A DNA stretch of 64,000 nt from Shouchella clausii. Its GTDB lineage: Bacteria > Bacillota > Bacilli > Bacillales > Bacillaceae_D. The notes beneath the pieces were generated by a model, which was not told the DNA's origin, searched no databases, and was given only the letters and a program-made list of their open reading frames with translations. The stretch spans positions 248,001 to 312,000 of the forward strand of contig NZ_BCXJ01000006.1 of the NCBI RefSeq assembly GCF_001598215.1, read 5' to 3'. Of the stretch, positions 20,503 to 63,488 are shown in pieces. Position numbers and translations under genes: made by a program. The first letter of the stretch is position 1; each line of letters starts with the position of its first letter.

Positions 20503-20537
20503 AATTGATCTCCTTCGCTTCCTAAGCTAATAAAAAA

Positions 20538-20626
20538 CCTCCTGTGCAAACACAGGAGGCGGCAAGAAAGAAGCGCAGGCAAAAAAACAGCGTGCGTTTC
20601 GGTCCTCTTGCCAGCCTCACTGGACT
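20538..20626 (-). promoter_or_regulatory. PyrR-dependent attenuator in front of pyrP
   Basis: On the minus strand the PyrR-binding core AGTCCAGTGAGGCTGGC (20626-20610) is followed by a terminator. The terminator stem is CCTCCTGTG/CACAGGAGG (20559-20538) with a 4-nt loop and a T-run. This is the classic pyr layout: PyrR bound with UMP stabilises the anti-antiterminator loop and lets the terminator form. Confidence 0.88.
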
Positions 20627-20641
20627 GCATTTAAAGAGGGT

Positions 20642-21283
<642 letters not shown>

Positions 21284-21308
21284 TTAAAGGACGCTTTCTA
21301 TCTCAATC

Positions 21309-26491: not shown

Positions 26492-26760
26492 AAAAACAAA
26501 AACCTTCCCGCCCCAAAAAAGGGACGAGAAGGTTTTCCCGCGGTACCACCCTCATAGAAAAGGCACGATCGCCTTTTCCACTTTCACGCCGTTAACGTAG
26601 GCAGCACGCACCCCACTACTAGCACAAACGGATCAACATGTGCGGTTCGCAGGTAGAACTCAAGGGCGATTTTGGGCAAGCCATGCACCGGGCTTCCACC
26701 ATTCCCGGCTCGCTTTGGCATGTACGCGTTTGCCCACTGTCCCTATCCTTGTTTTTAACG
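26492..26760 (-). promoter_or_regulatory. T-box riboswitch, isoleucine specifier, upstream of ileS
   Basis: Read on the minus strand. The Stem I lower helix is TGGGCAA (26736-26730) with TTGCCCA (26679-26673). The apical element GGTGGAAGCC starts at 26700. The ATC specifier (26670-26668) directly follows the helix. The T-box core AGGGTGGTACCGCG is at 26552-26539. The terminator stem CCTTCTCGTCCC/GGGGCGGGAAGG (26532-26503) is followed by TTTTTGTTTTT. Uncharged tRNA-Ile should stabilise the antiterminator and allow ileS transcription. Confidence 0.95.
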
Positions 26761-31034: not shown

Positions 31035-31819
31035 CATGATTCTATATGTTTATTCATTTGTTGGATCGCGCCTTTTTCTAGCCTAGACACTTGCGCTTGT
31101 GAGATGCCGATCTCCTCGGCTACTTCCATTTGCGTTTTCCCTTGAAAGAAACGCATGTTTAAAATCGTTTTCTCTCGATCATTTAAGCGGACCATCGCCT
31201 CTTTTAAAGCAATTTCTTCTACCCAGTTTATATCTTTATTTCGTTCATCACTAATTTGGTCCATGACAAAGATTGGATCGCCGCCGTCATTATAAATCGG
31301 TTCGAACAAGGAGACAGGATCTTGAATCGCGTCTAGAGCAAAGACAACATCTTCTTTTGGCACCTCAAGTACTGCAGCAATCTCTTGCACTGTCGGTTCT
31401 TTCTCCCGTTTTTTTTCTGCCATGATTTGGTCGCGCACTTGCAGTGCTTTATAGGCAATATCCCGAAGAGAGCGTGAAACCCGAATTGGATTATTGTCCC
31501 GTAAATACCGTCTAATCTCCCCAATAATCATCGGGACCGCATACGTTGAAAATTTTACGTTTTGGCTTAAATCAAAGTTGTCGATTGATTTCATTAATCC
31601 AATGCAGCCGACTTGAAACAAATCATCTACGTTCTCGCCGCGGTTATTAAATCGCTGAATGACACTTAACACTAAGCGCAAATTCCCATTTACGAGCGTT
31701 TCTCTCGCTGGCTCATAGCCGGCTTGCAACTTCGTAAACAACTCCCGCATTTCAGCGTTCTTTAAAACTGGCAACGTCGATGTGTCAACGCCGCAGATTT
31801 CCACTTTATTTCGAGTCAC
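31034..31819 (-). CDS. sigG: Late forespore sigma factor G
   Basis: Directs forespore transcription after engulfment. The 261-residue product has conserved region 2 (NLRLVLSVIQRF, DDLFQVGCIGLMKSIDNFD, STYAVPMIIGEIRRYLRD), region 3, and the region 4 helix-turn-helix EEIGISQAQVSRLEKGA. The N-terminus EICGVDTSTLPVLKNAEM matches SigG rather than SigF. It starts at a GTG at 31819 after AGGGGG. It is separated from sigE by a terminator and a candidate forespore promoter. Confidence 0.96.
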   Translation of the reverse strand: MTRNKVEICGVDTSTLPVLKNAEMRELFTKLQAGYEPARETLVNGNLRLVLSVIQRFNNRGENVDDLFQVGCIGLMKSIDNFDLSQNVKFSTYAVPMIIGEIRRYLRDNNPIRVSRSLRDIAYKALQVRDQIMAEKKREKEPTVQEIAAVLEVPKEDVVFALDAIQDPVSLFEPIYNDGGDPIFVMDQISDERNKDINWVEEIALKEAMVRLNDREKTILNMRFFQGKTQMEVAEEIGISQAQVSRLEKGAIQQMNKHIES

Positions 31820-59260: not shown

Positions 59261-60478
59261 ATGAAAGAAGCCCACTTTGCATCGCTCGTTAAAACTGGTT
59301 TCCTTGCGGGCGCCGCACTTGTGCTTGCATTTGCGCTCATGCTGTTTCCTAAAGAGGCACTGGACGCGTCAACACGCGGCCTTGAGATGTGGTGGCACGT
59401 CGTCTTTCCGTCGCTTTTGCCTTTCTTTATCGTTTCCGAATTACTGATCGGCTTTGGAGTAGTTTCGTTTATAGGCGTACTATTGGAACCGCTCATGCGC
59501 CCGCTCTTCTCTGTACCTGGCATTGGCGGCTTTGTTTGGGCAATGGGGCTAGCCAGCGGCAATCCTGCAGGGGCTAAGCTAGCTGTCCGCATGCGCCAAC
59601 AAAAAAAAGTCACGCGAATAGAAGGCGAACGCCTTGCCGCTTTTACGAATTCGTCTAATCCCTTGTTTATCTTTGGGGCAATTGCAGTCGGTTTTTTCCA
59701 CGACGCTGCACTAGGAATCGTTTTGGCAATCGCCCACTATGGTGGCAACGTGTTAGTCGGGCTTTCCATGCGTTTTTATGGGCTTACTGAAACGGACGAG
59801 AAAAGCCGCAGCAAAAAGGGGCTACACCTAAAAGACGCTTTCTTGCTCTTGCATGAAGAACGCTTGAAAGATGGGCGCACGCTCGGAAAGTTGCTCGGCG
59901 ATGCCGTTCGCTCATCTATCCAAACGCTGCTGTTGATTGGCGGTTTTATTATCTTGTTTTCCGTGTTAAACCAGATGCTGTCACTACTGGGCGTTCTTAG
60001 CCTTGTAGCACTAGCAGTCCAACAGCTCTTTTCGCTTGTTGCGCTTCCGCCTGATCTAGCTAAGCCTTTTTTAGCTGGTCTGTTTGAAATCACAATTGGC
60101 GCCGAACAAATAAGCAGCACAGACAGCGTTTCTATGTTGTTTCAGCTCATTGTTGTTTCCTTCATCCTTGGGTTCGGAGGCTTTTCGGTGCAAGCCCAAG
60201 TGGCCAGCATCTTGACTGAATCAGACCTGCGTTTCCGCCCATTTTTTTTCGCCCGTTTTCTGCACGGCTTGTTTGCCGCTTTGCTAGCCGCACTCCTATT
60301 TAAACCGCTCTATAAGCCGAATGCCCACGAAACAGGAAGCTTTGGCGCCAACGCTCCTGCTTTGTTTGGCGAACGTATTTGGGAATGGCTCACCGCCTAC
60401 GGTGGCGTGATCACCCTATGTGCGCTGTTGTTTTTTATTTTCGCCAACGTCCGCGTTTGGTTACGCGAAGTCGGCTAG
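59261..60478 (+). CDS. ylbJ: Sporulation integral membrane protein YlbJ
   Basis: A 405-residue polytopic membrane protein of the YlbJ family, needed in the mother cell for heat-resistant spores of B. subtilis (sigma-E regulon). About eight to ten membrane segments are visible. Gate/nucleoside-recognition-like motifs are LFPKEALDASTRGLEMWWH near residue 24 and PSLLPFFIVSELLIGFGVV near residue 46; others are GLASGNPAGAKLAVRM near residue 92 and FTNSSNPLFIFGAIAVGFF near residue 128. The ATG at 59261 follows AAGGAGG; the longer open frame is dismissed. Its stop overlaps that of coaD. No clear sigma-E promoter was recognised. Confidence 0.93.
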   Translation: MKEAHFASLVKTGFLAGAALVLAFALMLFPKEALDASTRGLEMWWHVVFPSLLPFFIVSELLIGFGVVSFIGVLLEPLMRPLFSVPGIGGFVWAMGLASGNPAGAKLAVRMRQQKKVTRIEGERLAAFTNSSNPLFIFGAIAVGFFHDAALGIVLAIAHYGGNVLVGLSMRFYGLTETDEKSRSKKGLHLKDAFLLLHEERLKDGRTLGKLLGDAVRSSIQTLLLIGGFIILFSVLNQMLSLLGVLSLVALAVQQLFSLVALPPDLAKPFLAGLFEITIGAEQISSTDSVSMLFQLIVVSFILGFGGFSVQAQVASILTESDLRFRPFFFARFLHGLFAALLAALLFKPLYKPNAHETGSFGANAPALFGERIWEWLTAYGGVITLCALLFFIFANVRVWLREVG

Positions 60479-60954
60479 CGACGGTATACTTCCTTAAGAG
60501 CATAAGCAACAGGCTGTGGCACAAGCTTTGACACATCTTGGGAGTAGCTCGCCACCTCTTTAACAATGCTGGAACTGACATAAGAATAATTCGGATCTGT
60601 CATCAAAAACAGGGTGTCCAACTGTGGCGCAAGTTCTTTGTTCATTGCGGCAATATTTTTTTCATATTCAAAATCAGCATTTGAGCGGAGGCCTCGCACA
60701 ATGGCCGTCGCCTCCTTTTCTCTCGCATAATCGACAAGCAAGCCATCAAACGAATCAATGGTCGCGTTTTTTATATGGGCAATGGATTCCCGTAACAGCC
60801 GCTCCCGTTCTGCCAATGGAAAGAGCGGCTTTTTTTTGTTGTTGATTAAAATGGCGATAATGATCTCGTCAAACAGTGCGCCAGCCCGTTCAAATAAGTC
60901 AATATGGCCATTCGTGACAGGGTCAAAGCTCCCTGAACAAATTGCTCTTTTCAT
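60475..60954 (-). CDS. coaD: Phosphopantetheine adenylyltransferase
   Basis: Transfers AMP to 4'-phosphopantetheine, the penultimate step of coenzyme A synthesis. The 159-residue product starts MKRAICSGSFDPVTNGHIDL with the HxGH-type motif TNGHID. RGLRSNADFEYE is near residue 88 and the closing SSSIVKEVA motif near residue 127. It follows rsmD by 4 bp. Its stop codon shares CTAG with that of convergent ylbJ. Confidence 0.97.
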   Translation of the reverse strand: MKRAICSGSFDPVTNGHIDLFERAGALFDEIIIAILINNKKKPLFPLAERERLLRESIAHIKNATIDSFDGLLVDYAREKEATAIVRGLRSNADFEYEKNIAAMNKELAPQLDTLFLMTDPNYSYVSSSIVKEVASYSQDVSKLVPQPVAYALKEVYRR

Positions 60955-60958
60955 CTAA

Positions 60959-61510
60959 TCAACCCTTCTTGTAAACCGTTAGTTTCGTATCGCCATAGCA
61001 TTCTTCCCGCCCTTTTACTAAAGGCCCTGCTGTATCTGGCAACTGTATATGTAGTGCTGTTTCACAAACCGTTACGCCTGCTGGCGCAAGCAAATTGTAG
61101 TCGTCAATCAAACCAAAAAGCGTCTCCATTTGTTGCTTGGCATAAGGGGGGTCTAACAAAATAAGGTCAAATGAGACGTCTCGCTTTCCTACTGCTTTTA
61201 AAGCGCGCAAGCTATCATTCCGGTATACTTCTGCTTTATCTGTATAGCCAGCATGGCTTAAATTGGCGTGAATCGTTGCAATTGCTTGCTTGTTCTGGTC
61301 AACAAAAATGCATGACTCCATTCCCCTGCTTAGCGCCTCAATCCCTAAAGCACCGCTACCTGCATAAAGGTCTAAGGCCTTCCCTCCATCAAAATAAGGG
61401 CCAATGATATTGAACATCGCTTCTTTTACTTTATCTGTCGTCGGCCGTGTTGTTTTTCCAGGAACGGCTTTTAACTGTAAGCCCCGTGCTTCACCAGCAA
61501 TAACCCTCAT
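60959..61510 (-). CDS. rsmD: 16S rRNA (guanine-966-N2)-methyltransferase RsmD
   Basis: N2-methylates G966 of 16S rRNA. The 183-residue product has the RsmD start MRVIAGEARGLQLKAVPG and TRPTTDKVKEAMFNIIGPYF near residues 22-41. SAM motif I is ALDLYAGSGALGIEALSRG near residue 48, and the catalytic motif is LILLDPPYAKQQ near residue 117. The ATG at 61510 follows AGGTGATGG; two upstream in-frame ATGs are less likely. It forms a pair with coaD as in other bacilli. Confidence 0.95.
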   Translation of the reverse strand: MRVIAGEARGLQLKAVPGKTTRPTTDKVKEAMFNIIGPYFDGGKALDLYAGSGALGIEALSRGMESCIFVDQNKQAIATIHANLSHAGYTDKAEVYRNDSLRALKAVGKRDVSFDLILLDPPYAKQQMETLFGLIDDYNLLAPAGVTVCETALHIQLPDTAGPLVKGREECYGDTKLTVYKKG

Positions 61511-61867
61511 TTCCATCACCTAATCATCTGTTTTTCTTCTATCGTACCATATATGAACCTCTCCTACTTGCAACACGCTTACAGTCTGTCCAAGTTTTGA
61601 CGGATCGGATTACGGCGCCTTCTTCTCCTACAGTAAGCAGACAATCGCTTTAGGTCCGGAAATATCCTACAGACGAAGAGCTAGTCCAGTACTAAATGAT
61701 TCGCATCTCCTTTCATTCATACTGCAACGTTATATCTAGTTAACATTGATGATATCAAATTGCCACAAACAAGAGCAATAAGACTTCCAGGCTTCGTCTA
61801 GCCGGATCATTCATCCCCTTCCCATTAGAGAAAAGGAACTTCTTTCAAAAAGCTGTTAAAAGACGTG
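61511..61867. other. Non-coding interval upstream of rsmD
   Basis: About 360 bp with no convincing gene on either strand. It must hold the rsmD-coaD promoter (minus), which I could not place with confidence. Motifs such as TACAGTCTG near 61591 resemble the terminator-linked element described in the findings, but no hairpin follows. Confidence 0.5.
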
Positions 61868-61873
61868 TATAAA
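61844..61873 (+). promoter_or_regulatory. Possible promoter of the structured RNA
   Basis: TTCAAA (61844-61849) and TATAAA (61868-61873) on the plus strand with 18-bp spacing would start transcription near 61880, at the edge of the hairpin-rich stretch. Confidence 0.4.
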
Positions 61874-61879
61874 GCGACG

Positions 61880-62039
61880 ATTCCCTGACCATACTGGATG
61901 TTAGCAGCACAGTACGTGTTGCGACAACCGCGGAGAAGGCTTACGTTTCCCCATAAGCTCTTCCTCCGGTTTCTCCTCTCCCATAGCCATGTGAAAATCA
62001 TGGCAAGGCGCTCTTCTTCATGAAGGGCGCCTATTTTTT
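61880..62039 (+). ncRNA. Possible structured RNA or leader ending in a terminator
   Basis: Four hairpins lie in succession on the plus strand. The first is GCAGCAC/GTGTTGC at 61904-61922. The second is a long imperfect stem closed by AACCG/CGGTT and GCTTA/TAAGC at 61926-61971. The third is GCCATG/CATGGC at 61986-62004. The fourth is an 11-bp terminator stem AGGCGCTCTTC/GAAGGGCGCCT with T6 at 62006-62039. The next plus-strand gene starts 61 bp later. It could be a small RNA or a cis-acting attenuator leader for that gene. It matches no RNA family I recognise. The exact 5' end is inferred. Confidence 0.5.
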
Positions 62040-62100
62040 GCTCGACAAAGGCTTGCTCCCATGCTATTCTGCACTCAAACGTAGTTGGAGGAAATGCACG

Positions 62101-62478
62101 ATGATTCAACGATTTATCGAACTAGGAAATGGCTACACTGATTTCTTTGAACTGCTAGAACTGGCGAAAAGCAATGCCAAGCGCGCTCATGCTTTTTTGG
62201 AGTTGCAAACAGAAGAGGGACGTTCTTCCTTGGCCGTATGCTTTAAGCCAGCCGGAGACAGCCAATTTATGCCGATTTACATATGCAGGGAAGGATTTCA
62301 GGCAAACAACCGCCAAAACAAGCGACTAGCTGCATTCTATGCACTCGCTTCCGAACTTGGCTTTACCGTTTTCAAGCTGGAAGTGAAGCCAAAAAGCGCA
62401 TTTTACGATATACAATTATACGACCAATACCTTGTTGGCGTACTCCGCTTCCAGCGAATTTTGCCGCCATTAAGCTAA
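62101..62478 (+). CDS. Small conserved Bacillaceae protein (DUF7147-like)
   Basis: A 125-residue soluble protein, MIQRFIELGNGYTDFFELLE, with FLELQTEEGRSSLAVCFKPA near residues 38-57 and a C-terminus ending LVGVLRFQRILPPLS. It looks like the DUF7147 family seen between rsmD and ylbG in several bacilli. Database entries often call such proteins methylthioribose kinase, but the size and lack of a kinase motif argue against that. GGAGG lies 9 nt before the ATG. It is on the plus strand, convergent with ylbG, and may be controlled by the hairpin-rich leader upstream. Confidence 0.7.
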   Translation: MIQRFIELGNGYTDFFELLELAKSNAKRAHAFLELQTEEGRSSLAVCFKPAGDSQFMPIYICREGFQANNRQNKRLAAFYALASELGFTVFKLEVKPKSAFYDIQLYDQYLVGVLRFQRILPPLS

Positions 62479-62490
62479 GCATTCGACATG

Positions 62491-62523
62491 AAAAAAACCT
62501 GGAAGGATCAACCACCTTCCAGG
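62491..62523 (-). terminator. Terminator after ylbG
   Basis: CCTGGAAGG and CCTTCCAGG form a perfect 9-bp stem with an 8-nt loop, followed by T7 on the minus strand, directly beyond the ylbG stop. Confidence 0.88.
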
Positions 62524-62802
62524 CTATATGCCTAATTTGTAATCGTATTCTTTTGCTTTATCTGGTTTCGCCCCTTCATACTCCGTATTAATAAACGGGC
62601 GCATGGATGGTTTAACGTCCGTAACAAAATGAAAGCTGGAGAGCTTGTCAACCAACTCAGGCACTTTTGACTGGTCGCAATAAAAAACGACGTATTTCAT
62701 TTTCTTTGAGACGTACTGGACATGTCCAAACCGTCTTAGCTGGCGGGCATATTTAAGCGACGTAAGCCAGACAACAATCCCTTGCCGATTTGGGCTAATC
62801 AT
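62524..62802 (-). CDS. ylbG: DUF2129 family protein YlbG
   Basis: A 92-residue YlbG (DUF2129) protein. It starts MISPNRQGIVVWLTSLKYAR and has the conserved LRRFGHVQYVSKKMKYVVFY near residues 22-41. It has no membrane segment. Function is unknown; it is constantly found beside ylbF. The ATG follows AGGGG, and a terminator ends the gene. Confidence 0.92.
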   Translation of the reverse strand: MISPNRQGIVVWLTSLKYARQLRRFGHVQYVSKKMKYVVFYCDQSKVPELVDKLSSFHFVTDVKPSMRPFINTEYEGAKPDKAKEYDYKLGI

Positions 62803-62894: not shown

Positions 62895-63335
62895 CTAGCC
62901 GCAGCTGCAGCTCCCTCCTGCGCCACAGCCGCCGCTGCAAGGCATCGAGTCAAAAAACGGGTTACCTGTAGGTACTTTTATAGAAGAAGAAACGCTATGG
63001 GCGATAATGGCGCTTAGTTCGTTTAAAAGTGACTCAAGTTCTGTTTCTGCTTGCTTAAAAGCGGAAATGACCTCATCTTTATCCAGCTCGCGCTTTGCGA
63101 TACGAATTTCCGCGGATACCGACTTATAATCGGGATGATATTTGCCAAAACGCTGCACTTCCTCATGGGCTTGCTTCACTTTTTTAAAGCGTTCTACTTT
63201 TGCTTGTGCAGCACGGTTTTCTTCAAAACGGGCACGGGATAAGCGATAATTAGCAAACACGCTTGACTGCAGCACCATTGCTGCCAGCTCATCTGACGCT
63301 TGAAGCATGTCCATCGCATCAATTGTAGCAATCAT
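62895..63335 (-). CDS. ylbF: YlbF/RicF, subunit of the RicAFT (Y-complex)
   Basis: Partner of YmcA and YaaT in the complex that promotes RNase Y-dependent mRNA maturation and affects competence, biofilm and sporulation. The 146-residue product is helical, with QRFGKYHPDYKSVSAEIR near residues 60-77 and VPTGNPFFDSM near residue 120. It ends in a Cys-rich tail CSGGCGAGGSCSCG, consistent with iron-sulfur ligation reported for the complex. The ATG at 63335 follows GGAGG at 8 nt; upstream ATGs in frame are less suitable. Confidence 0.93.
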   Translation of the reverse strand: MIATIDAMDMLQASDELAAMVLQSSVFANYRLSRARFEENRAAQAKVERFKKVKQAHEEVQRFGKYHPDYKSVSAEIRIAKRELDKDEVISAFKQAETELESLLNELSAIIAHSVSSSIKVPTGNPFFDSMPCSGGCGAGGSCSCG

Positions 63336-63488
63336 GGCGCACACCTCCTCTTCCATTGTAGCACGATTATTTCTTTTTAGGGTAATCATTTATACGTTGA
63401 CAAGCCACCTAAAACCTCTCTATAATTCATTCGACTATGGCTTCTCCCCGTTTGTTGCCAACCTATCTTTCCTTGAGGAGGAAACATC

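Follow-up and report, generated by a model that had tools for sequence, protein, structure and literature searches.

A segment between ylbG and rsmD of Shouchella clausii, annotated as a ylbH leader, very probably encodes the small RNA CsfG on the opposite strand

CsfG (S547) of Bacillus subtilis is the closest described counterpart of the segment analyzed here. PMC3574147, published in 2013, describes a B. subtilis northern blot with probes for both strands, of which the one opposite ylbH alone gave RNA. The detected RNA was equated with CsfG, 136 nt, located between ylbG and ylbH, and the supposed leader was thereby stated to be really CsfG. According to PMC8216469, CsfG is controlled by sigma-F/sigma-G in B. 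subtilis and is also expressed outside sporulation. Three C-rich regions are counted in it in PMC4409812, and PMC3871023 lists the B. licheniformis CsfG at ylbG/ylbH. All of this is already known: the existence of the RNA, the strand it comes from and its control by sigma factors have been published for B. subtilis. Rfam release 15 nevertheless keeps RF00516, the 'ylbH leader', on the rsmD strand and gives it the type of a cis leader, despite the evidence for an independent RNA on the opposite strand. Two further papers keep the label: in PMC4634765 the leader was not detected, and in PMC4342826 an opposite-strand gene separates the motif from the next gene. RoxS/RsaE and FsrA of the Firmicutes also have several C-rich unpaired regions and have been likened to CsfG (PMC4409812, PMC8216469). 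They lie at other loci under other regulators (ResDE and Fur) and, unlike CsfG, have known targets (PMC8216469).

The window, a stretch of 64,000 nucleotides of Shouchella clausii, carries on its plus strand between ylbG and rsmD a segment that, judged from sequence comparison, is very probably csfG, encoding a forespore small RNA that is conserved in endospore formers. It occupies the same place and strand relative to rsmD/ylbH as in B. subtilis and has a predicted length of about 137 nt, compared with the 136 nt listed in PMC3574147. Both share a forespore-type promoter, C-rich unpaired segments and a terminator. The sequences of the third hairpin and the terminator stem vary between genera, and in the window a DUF7147 gene adjoins csfG. 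RF00516 covers the same stretch of DNA (61928-62042, 81 bits, cut-off 50) in the opposite orientation: Rfam has a cis-regulatory leader there on the minus strand, and its model leaves out the 5' hairpin and the promoter. A first-pass annotation, made from the letters alone, had called the segment a candidate unrecognized RNA. The apparent unknown would be a known RNA, hidden in standard annotation by the wrong strand and a misleading name. Rfam annotation of spore formers would report an rsmD cis leader and miss the small RNA.

The locus and its predicted transcript

Names for ylbG, ylbF, coaD and rsmD are presumptive and combine Pfam family with the gene order of B. subtilis (Table 1). The nearest plus-strand gene upstream ends at 60478. 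The T run is separated by 61 bp from the DUF7147 gene, the spacing to the next gene that the first-pass annotation had given. The strand tests INDEPENDENTLY drew on 60 genomes of the order, among them the window's own, and took the RF00516 locus of each. A survey of synteny found rsmD oriented opposite to csfG in 59/59 other loci, and ylbG was opposite to csfG in 20/20 loci where it was found, of the 59. DUF7147 adjoins csfG in 43 of the 59, on the same strand in every case (43/43). Among 30 long loci with csfG RNA it was located in 22 and not found in eight; in three of these eight (L005, L016, L027) the anchor is followed by ylbG within 90-141 nt. At 1.1 kb, the remaining 29 loci are too short for an absence of DUF7147 to be counted. 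The DUF7147 of one genome (G008) is 97.6% identical to the window's copy. Directly after ylbG, the minus strand has a terminator-like site (62496-62525) that faces the end of the DUF7147 gene.

Table 1. Position of csfG, its predicted parts and the neighboring genes in the window
Feature	Position	Strand	Remarks
coaD	60475-60954	-	Pfam family and B. subtilis order
rsmD/ylbH	60959-61519	-	Pfam family and B. subtilis order
Predicted forespore-type (sigma-F/sigma-G) csfG promoter	61867-61895	+	motif
-35 GTATA	61867-61871	+	
Conserved G	61887	+	
-10 CATACT	61890-61895	+	18-nt spacer to -35
csfG small RNA, about 137 nt	61903-62039	+	start inferred from -10, end from terminator
5' hairpin	61904-61922	+	outside Rfam model; covariation, 60 loci
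Second hairpin, C-rich loop UUUCCCC (61946-61952)	61931-61968	+	nearly invariant
Unpaired C-rich linker GGUUUCUCCUCUCCC	61968-61982	+	candidate pairing segment
Third hairpin	61986-62004	+	sequence variable between genera
Intrinsic terminator	62006-62039	+	stem 62006-62032, T6 62034-62039
DUF7147 gene	62101-62478	+	
ylbG	62524-62802	-	Pfam family and B. subtilis order
ylbF	62895-63389	-	Pfam family and B. subtilis order

The four inverted repeats seen at first pass are all present, the second confined to a shorter stem within 61926-61971, and so is the T6 run after the last of them. Folding of the plus strand from 61880 to 62039 gave -60 kcal/mol compared with -38.2 +/- 3.8 for 200 dinucleotide shuffles (z -5.7, 0/200 as good), and a T run lies near the end of csfG in 60/60 aligned loci. 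With the structure predicted on the csfG strand, both sides changed in 10 of 23 predicted pairs, five in the 5' hairpin and five in the terminator. The alignment comprises 60 rows, 56 of them distinct, from related genomes, so these counts are not independent events. In the 5' hairpin, columns 13-40 are G-C in 33 loci and A-U in 23, columns 19-34 are U-A in 32 and C-G in 21, and columns 16-37 are G-U in 35 and A-U in 20. Stems kept in relatives with compensation, proposed as a check at first pass, were found in the 5' hairpin and the terminator stem. The second hairpin, singled out there for compensatory changes, has none: it is nearly invariant and varies only by one-sided A-U/G-U changes (columns 58-79, A-U 37, G-U 22). 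Support for the third hairpin is weak: 45/60 loci have a 6-pair arm, where shuffles average 29.

The 15-nt linker GGUUUCUCCUCUCCC, whose first base also closes the second hairpin, is identical in 60/60 loci. By our own division, the unpaired C-rich regions are the loop UUUCCCC and the linker UUUCUCCUCUCCC, of which the latter may hold two. No conserved reading frame runs through csfG. The longest frames vary in frame and start between genomes, and a coding function of the small RNA was rejected on this inconsistency.

Upstream of the RNA lies a predicted promoter of the forespore sigma-F/sigma-G kind. The pattern G[CT]AT[AG]-N16-19-NATA[ACT]T, composed after the loci had been inspected, was found in 56/60 loci, at a distance of 87 to 102 bases from the anchor on its upstream side, where mononucleotide shuffles give an expectation of 0.94/60. 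Its spacer is 17 or 18 nt in all 56 pattern-bearing loci. The position that precedes the C of CATAMT by three bases, although outside the search pattern, is G in 56/56. The four misses (L001, L004, L043, L051) were judged by eye to be near variants. The consensus over the loci, GTATR, 17-18 nt, GNNNATAMT, resembles that of forespore sigma-F/sigma-G promoters, and both sigF and sigG are found in the genome above curated cut-offs. The pair proposed at first pass, TTCAAA (61844-61849) and TATAAA (61868-61873), does exist on the plus strand, but it recurs in only 3/60 loci; its TATAAA overlaps the conserved -35, which is partnered by CATACT. An independent plus-strand small RNA with its own promoter, ending at the terminator, was one of the two readings offered in the first-pass annotation and is the one these data favor.

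Distribution among endospore formers

Within the order, RF00516 is present in 60/60 genomes. A sample of 398 genomes of the class was searched with RF00516 at E 0.001 and for SpoIVA with PF09547. RF00516 was detected in 230/398 genomes, 193 of them above the Rfam cut-off (strict filters may lose weak copies), and SpoIVA in 268/398. RF00516 occurs in 229 of the 268 SpoIVA-positive genomes and in 1/130 SpoIVA-negative ones, the exception being G379. Within this class sample, csfG therefore appears confined to endospore formers. The 39 SpoIVA-positive genomes lacking RF00516, 26 of which belong to one family, f36, indicate that csfG is not needed for sporulation everywhere.

A model of the csfG strand, R1, was run on these 39 genomes and matched five (3/30 plus 2/9), as well as G379; it matched 0/20 SpoIVA-negative controls taken from the 129 genomes with neither. 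In the best R1 match of each of these six genomes the linker is kept, with no more than a single base changed or inserted. In the diverged csfG copies L063, L064, L066, L067 and L068 the CU-rich linker is exact or has one inserted base, and the second hairpin is changed. Weak extra matches in L060, L061 and L065, considered as second csfG copies, looked like chance by eye and were rejected; extra RF00516 matches also occur in G165, G220 and G241.

Family f36 yielded no R1 match in any of these 26 genomes. In a sample of 12 of them rsmD was found in 12/12, and four exact csfG motifs, searched on the csfG strand within 1300 bp, were absent from all 12 loci. In five loci (L069, L070, L075, L078, L079) DUF7147 begins 77-118 bp from rsmD, which leaves no room for csfG; in the other seven DUF7147 was not found at rsmD. 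From these results csfG seems to have been lost from, or never gained by, f36, which keeps SpoIVA. The five loci in which DUF7147 follows rsmD by 77-118 bp are a natural csfG-free site, and a SpoIVA-positive family with the neighbors kept and no csfG found amounts to a natural experiment bearing on the purpose of CsfG.

Strand and rival readings of the segment

Searching the segment with covariance models, as proposed at first pass, did recover a known family, RF00516, though on the opposite strand. The matched stretch is most of csfG read as its reverse complement, and the model opens with an A-rich run that leads into a GC-rich hairpin, the reverse complement of a terminator. On the plus strand, the only Rfam candidate for a riboswitch or known RNA at E up to 1 was sau-6072, rejected at 19.6 bits against a cut-off of 50; this sub-threshold match rests on the third hairpin and the terminator stem.

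Since a G-U pair on the csfG strand corresponds to an A-C mismatch on the opposite strand, mismatches in stems can tell the two strands apart, and they favor the csfG strand. A strand-neutral count over terminator stems gave 19 G-T versus 2 A-C mismatches on the csfG strand, a count in which the T tail was drawn into the helices of L011, L015 and L051, and the L013 helix was mis-picked; without L011, L015 and L051 it is 12 G-T versus at most 2 A-C. The same script gave 14 G-T to 7 A-C and 26 other mismatches in the 5' hairpin, a weaker signal than that of the terminators.

By the name and type of RF00516 the segment would be a minus-strand cis-acting leader of rsmD/ylbH. Rfam models this strand, the match exceeds the cut-off, and the minus strand from 61880 to 62045 folds better than shuffles (z -2.8, 0/200 as good). 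Such a leader, however, would start with the terminator in reverse, and in an equally long stretch upstream on the Rfam strand the conserved type of promoter, the only type searched, was found in 0/60 loci. The G-U pairs favor the opposite strand, rsmD stands in 12/12 f36 genomes with no csfG motif within 1300 bp upstream, and the B. subtilis northern of PMC3574147 found no such RNA. Promoter, terminator and G-U signals thus fail to place transcription on the rsmD strand 5' of rsmD, and a cis leader of rsmD is strongly disfavored and very improbable. The second reading given at first pass, a plus-strand transcription attenuator or leader of the downstream DUF7147 gene, would fit a gene on the same strand 61 bp away that adjoins csfG in 43/59 other loci. 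This gene was nevertheless not found in 8/30 long loci that have the RNA, in 5/12 f36 loci it is the immediate neighbor of rsmD and the RNA is missing, and no competing antiterminator pairing appeared in the one fold examined. The RNA does not always precede the gene it would control, which leaves attenuation of DUF7147 scarcely credible. The constant opposite orientation of rsmD, together with the synteny of DUF7147 and ylbG, argues against both the leader and the attenuator.

Candidate mode of action

If the segment is csfG, the RNA would be made in the forespore from the sigma-F/sigma-G promoter and would act in trans, like RoxS and FsrA. Its unpaired C-rich UUUCCCC and UUUCUCCUCUCCC may pair with the purine-rich Shine-Dalgarno regions of several forespore mRNAs, and this pairing would lower their translation or stability. 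We consider trans pairing with the Shine-Dalgarno regions of several mRNAs, with lowered translation or stability, reasonably likely. A literature search that covered few subscription papers found none naming a CsfG target. PMC9147052 gives no known target and reports that disrupting such sRNAs caused no obvious sporulation defect, and PMC12456014 has factors such as CsfG regulate mRNAs, citing a 2011 paper.

As a measure of such pairing, the linker bound 390 called starts with a mean of -12.25 kcal/mol compared with -6.7 for 390 random genomic stretches, a difference that can be supportive only since our own start caller favors SD-like starts and may inflate it. Among 100 shuffles of the linker, two gave as large a difference between starts and random stretches and three bound starts as well. 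In 25 genomes, no conserved long antisense partner was found outside csfG. The exact complement of the linker occurs once per genome, at csfG, in 25/25. With one mismatch it occurs at five other places versus five for a reversed control, and the frames around these five places show no mutual similarity at E 1e-4. One of them (L121, 1501-1520, in G042) is the start region of an AbrB-type gene, which can pair with 14 of the 15 linker bases; another is the start of a chromate transporter. The AbrB-type gene matches Pfam AbrB_C and the NCBIfam AbrB domain and is presumptively abrB. In 25/25 genomes the linker pairs better with the abrB start than shuffles do (z -1.7 to -7.6). Other starts as good or better, called by the same SD-favoring script, number 0/149 in G042, 10/188 in G038 and 132/390 in the window's genome, and on the last count abrB was rejected as a conserved target.

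The conservation of the linker can also be read in terms of protein binding, in which case CsfG would mainly hold an RNA-binding protein, like a sponge, instead of base pairing. An identical 15-nt linker in 60/60 loci is stricter than short Shine-Dalgarno pairing seems to require, and the lack of a conserved long complement outside csfG in the 25 genomes points the same way. In B. subtilis, CsfG co-precipitated with Hfq and was modestly lowered in an hfq mutant (PMC3574147), and PMC3814617 raises the possibility that YlbG takes part in CsfG activity. On the other hand, the similar C-rich sRNAs RoxS and FsrA regulate mRNAs (PMC8216469, PMC4409812), and 97-98 of 100 shuffles of the linker are less complementary to translation starts than the linker itself. 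We therefore prefer several short-paired targets over the sponge, which we hold to be rather unlikely. More doubtful still is that CsfG is an anti-Shine-Dalgarno mimic whose invariant CU-rich segment masks many start sites as the forespore closes down. If true, it would help to silence translation before dormancy and would not serve a few chosen targets.

The window also contains sigG (31043-31810, minus strand; TIGR02850, 501 bits), whose product is one of the two sigma factors that would be expected to transcribe csfG. Further RNA elements above their Rfam cut-offs are a T-box leader (26517-26758) and two PyrR binding sites (20529-20641 and 21191-21294), all on the minus strand.
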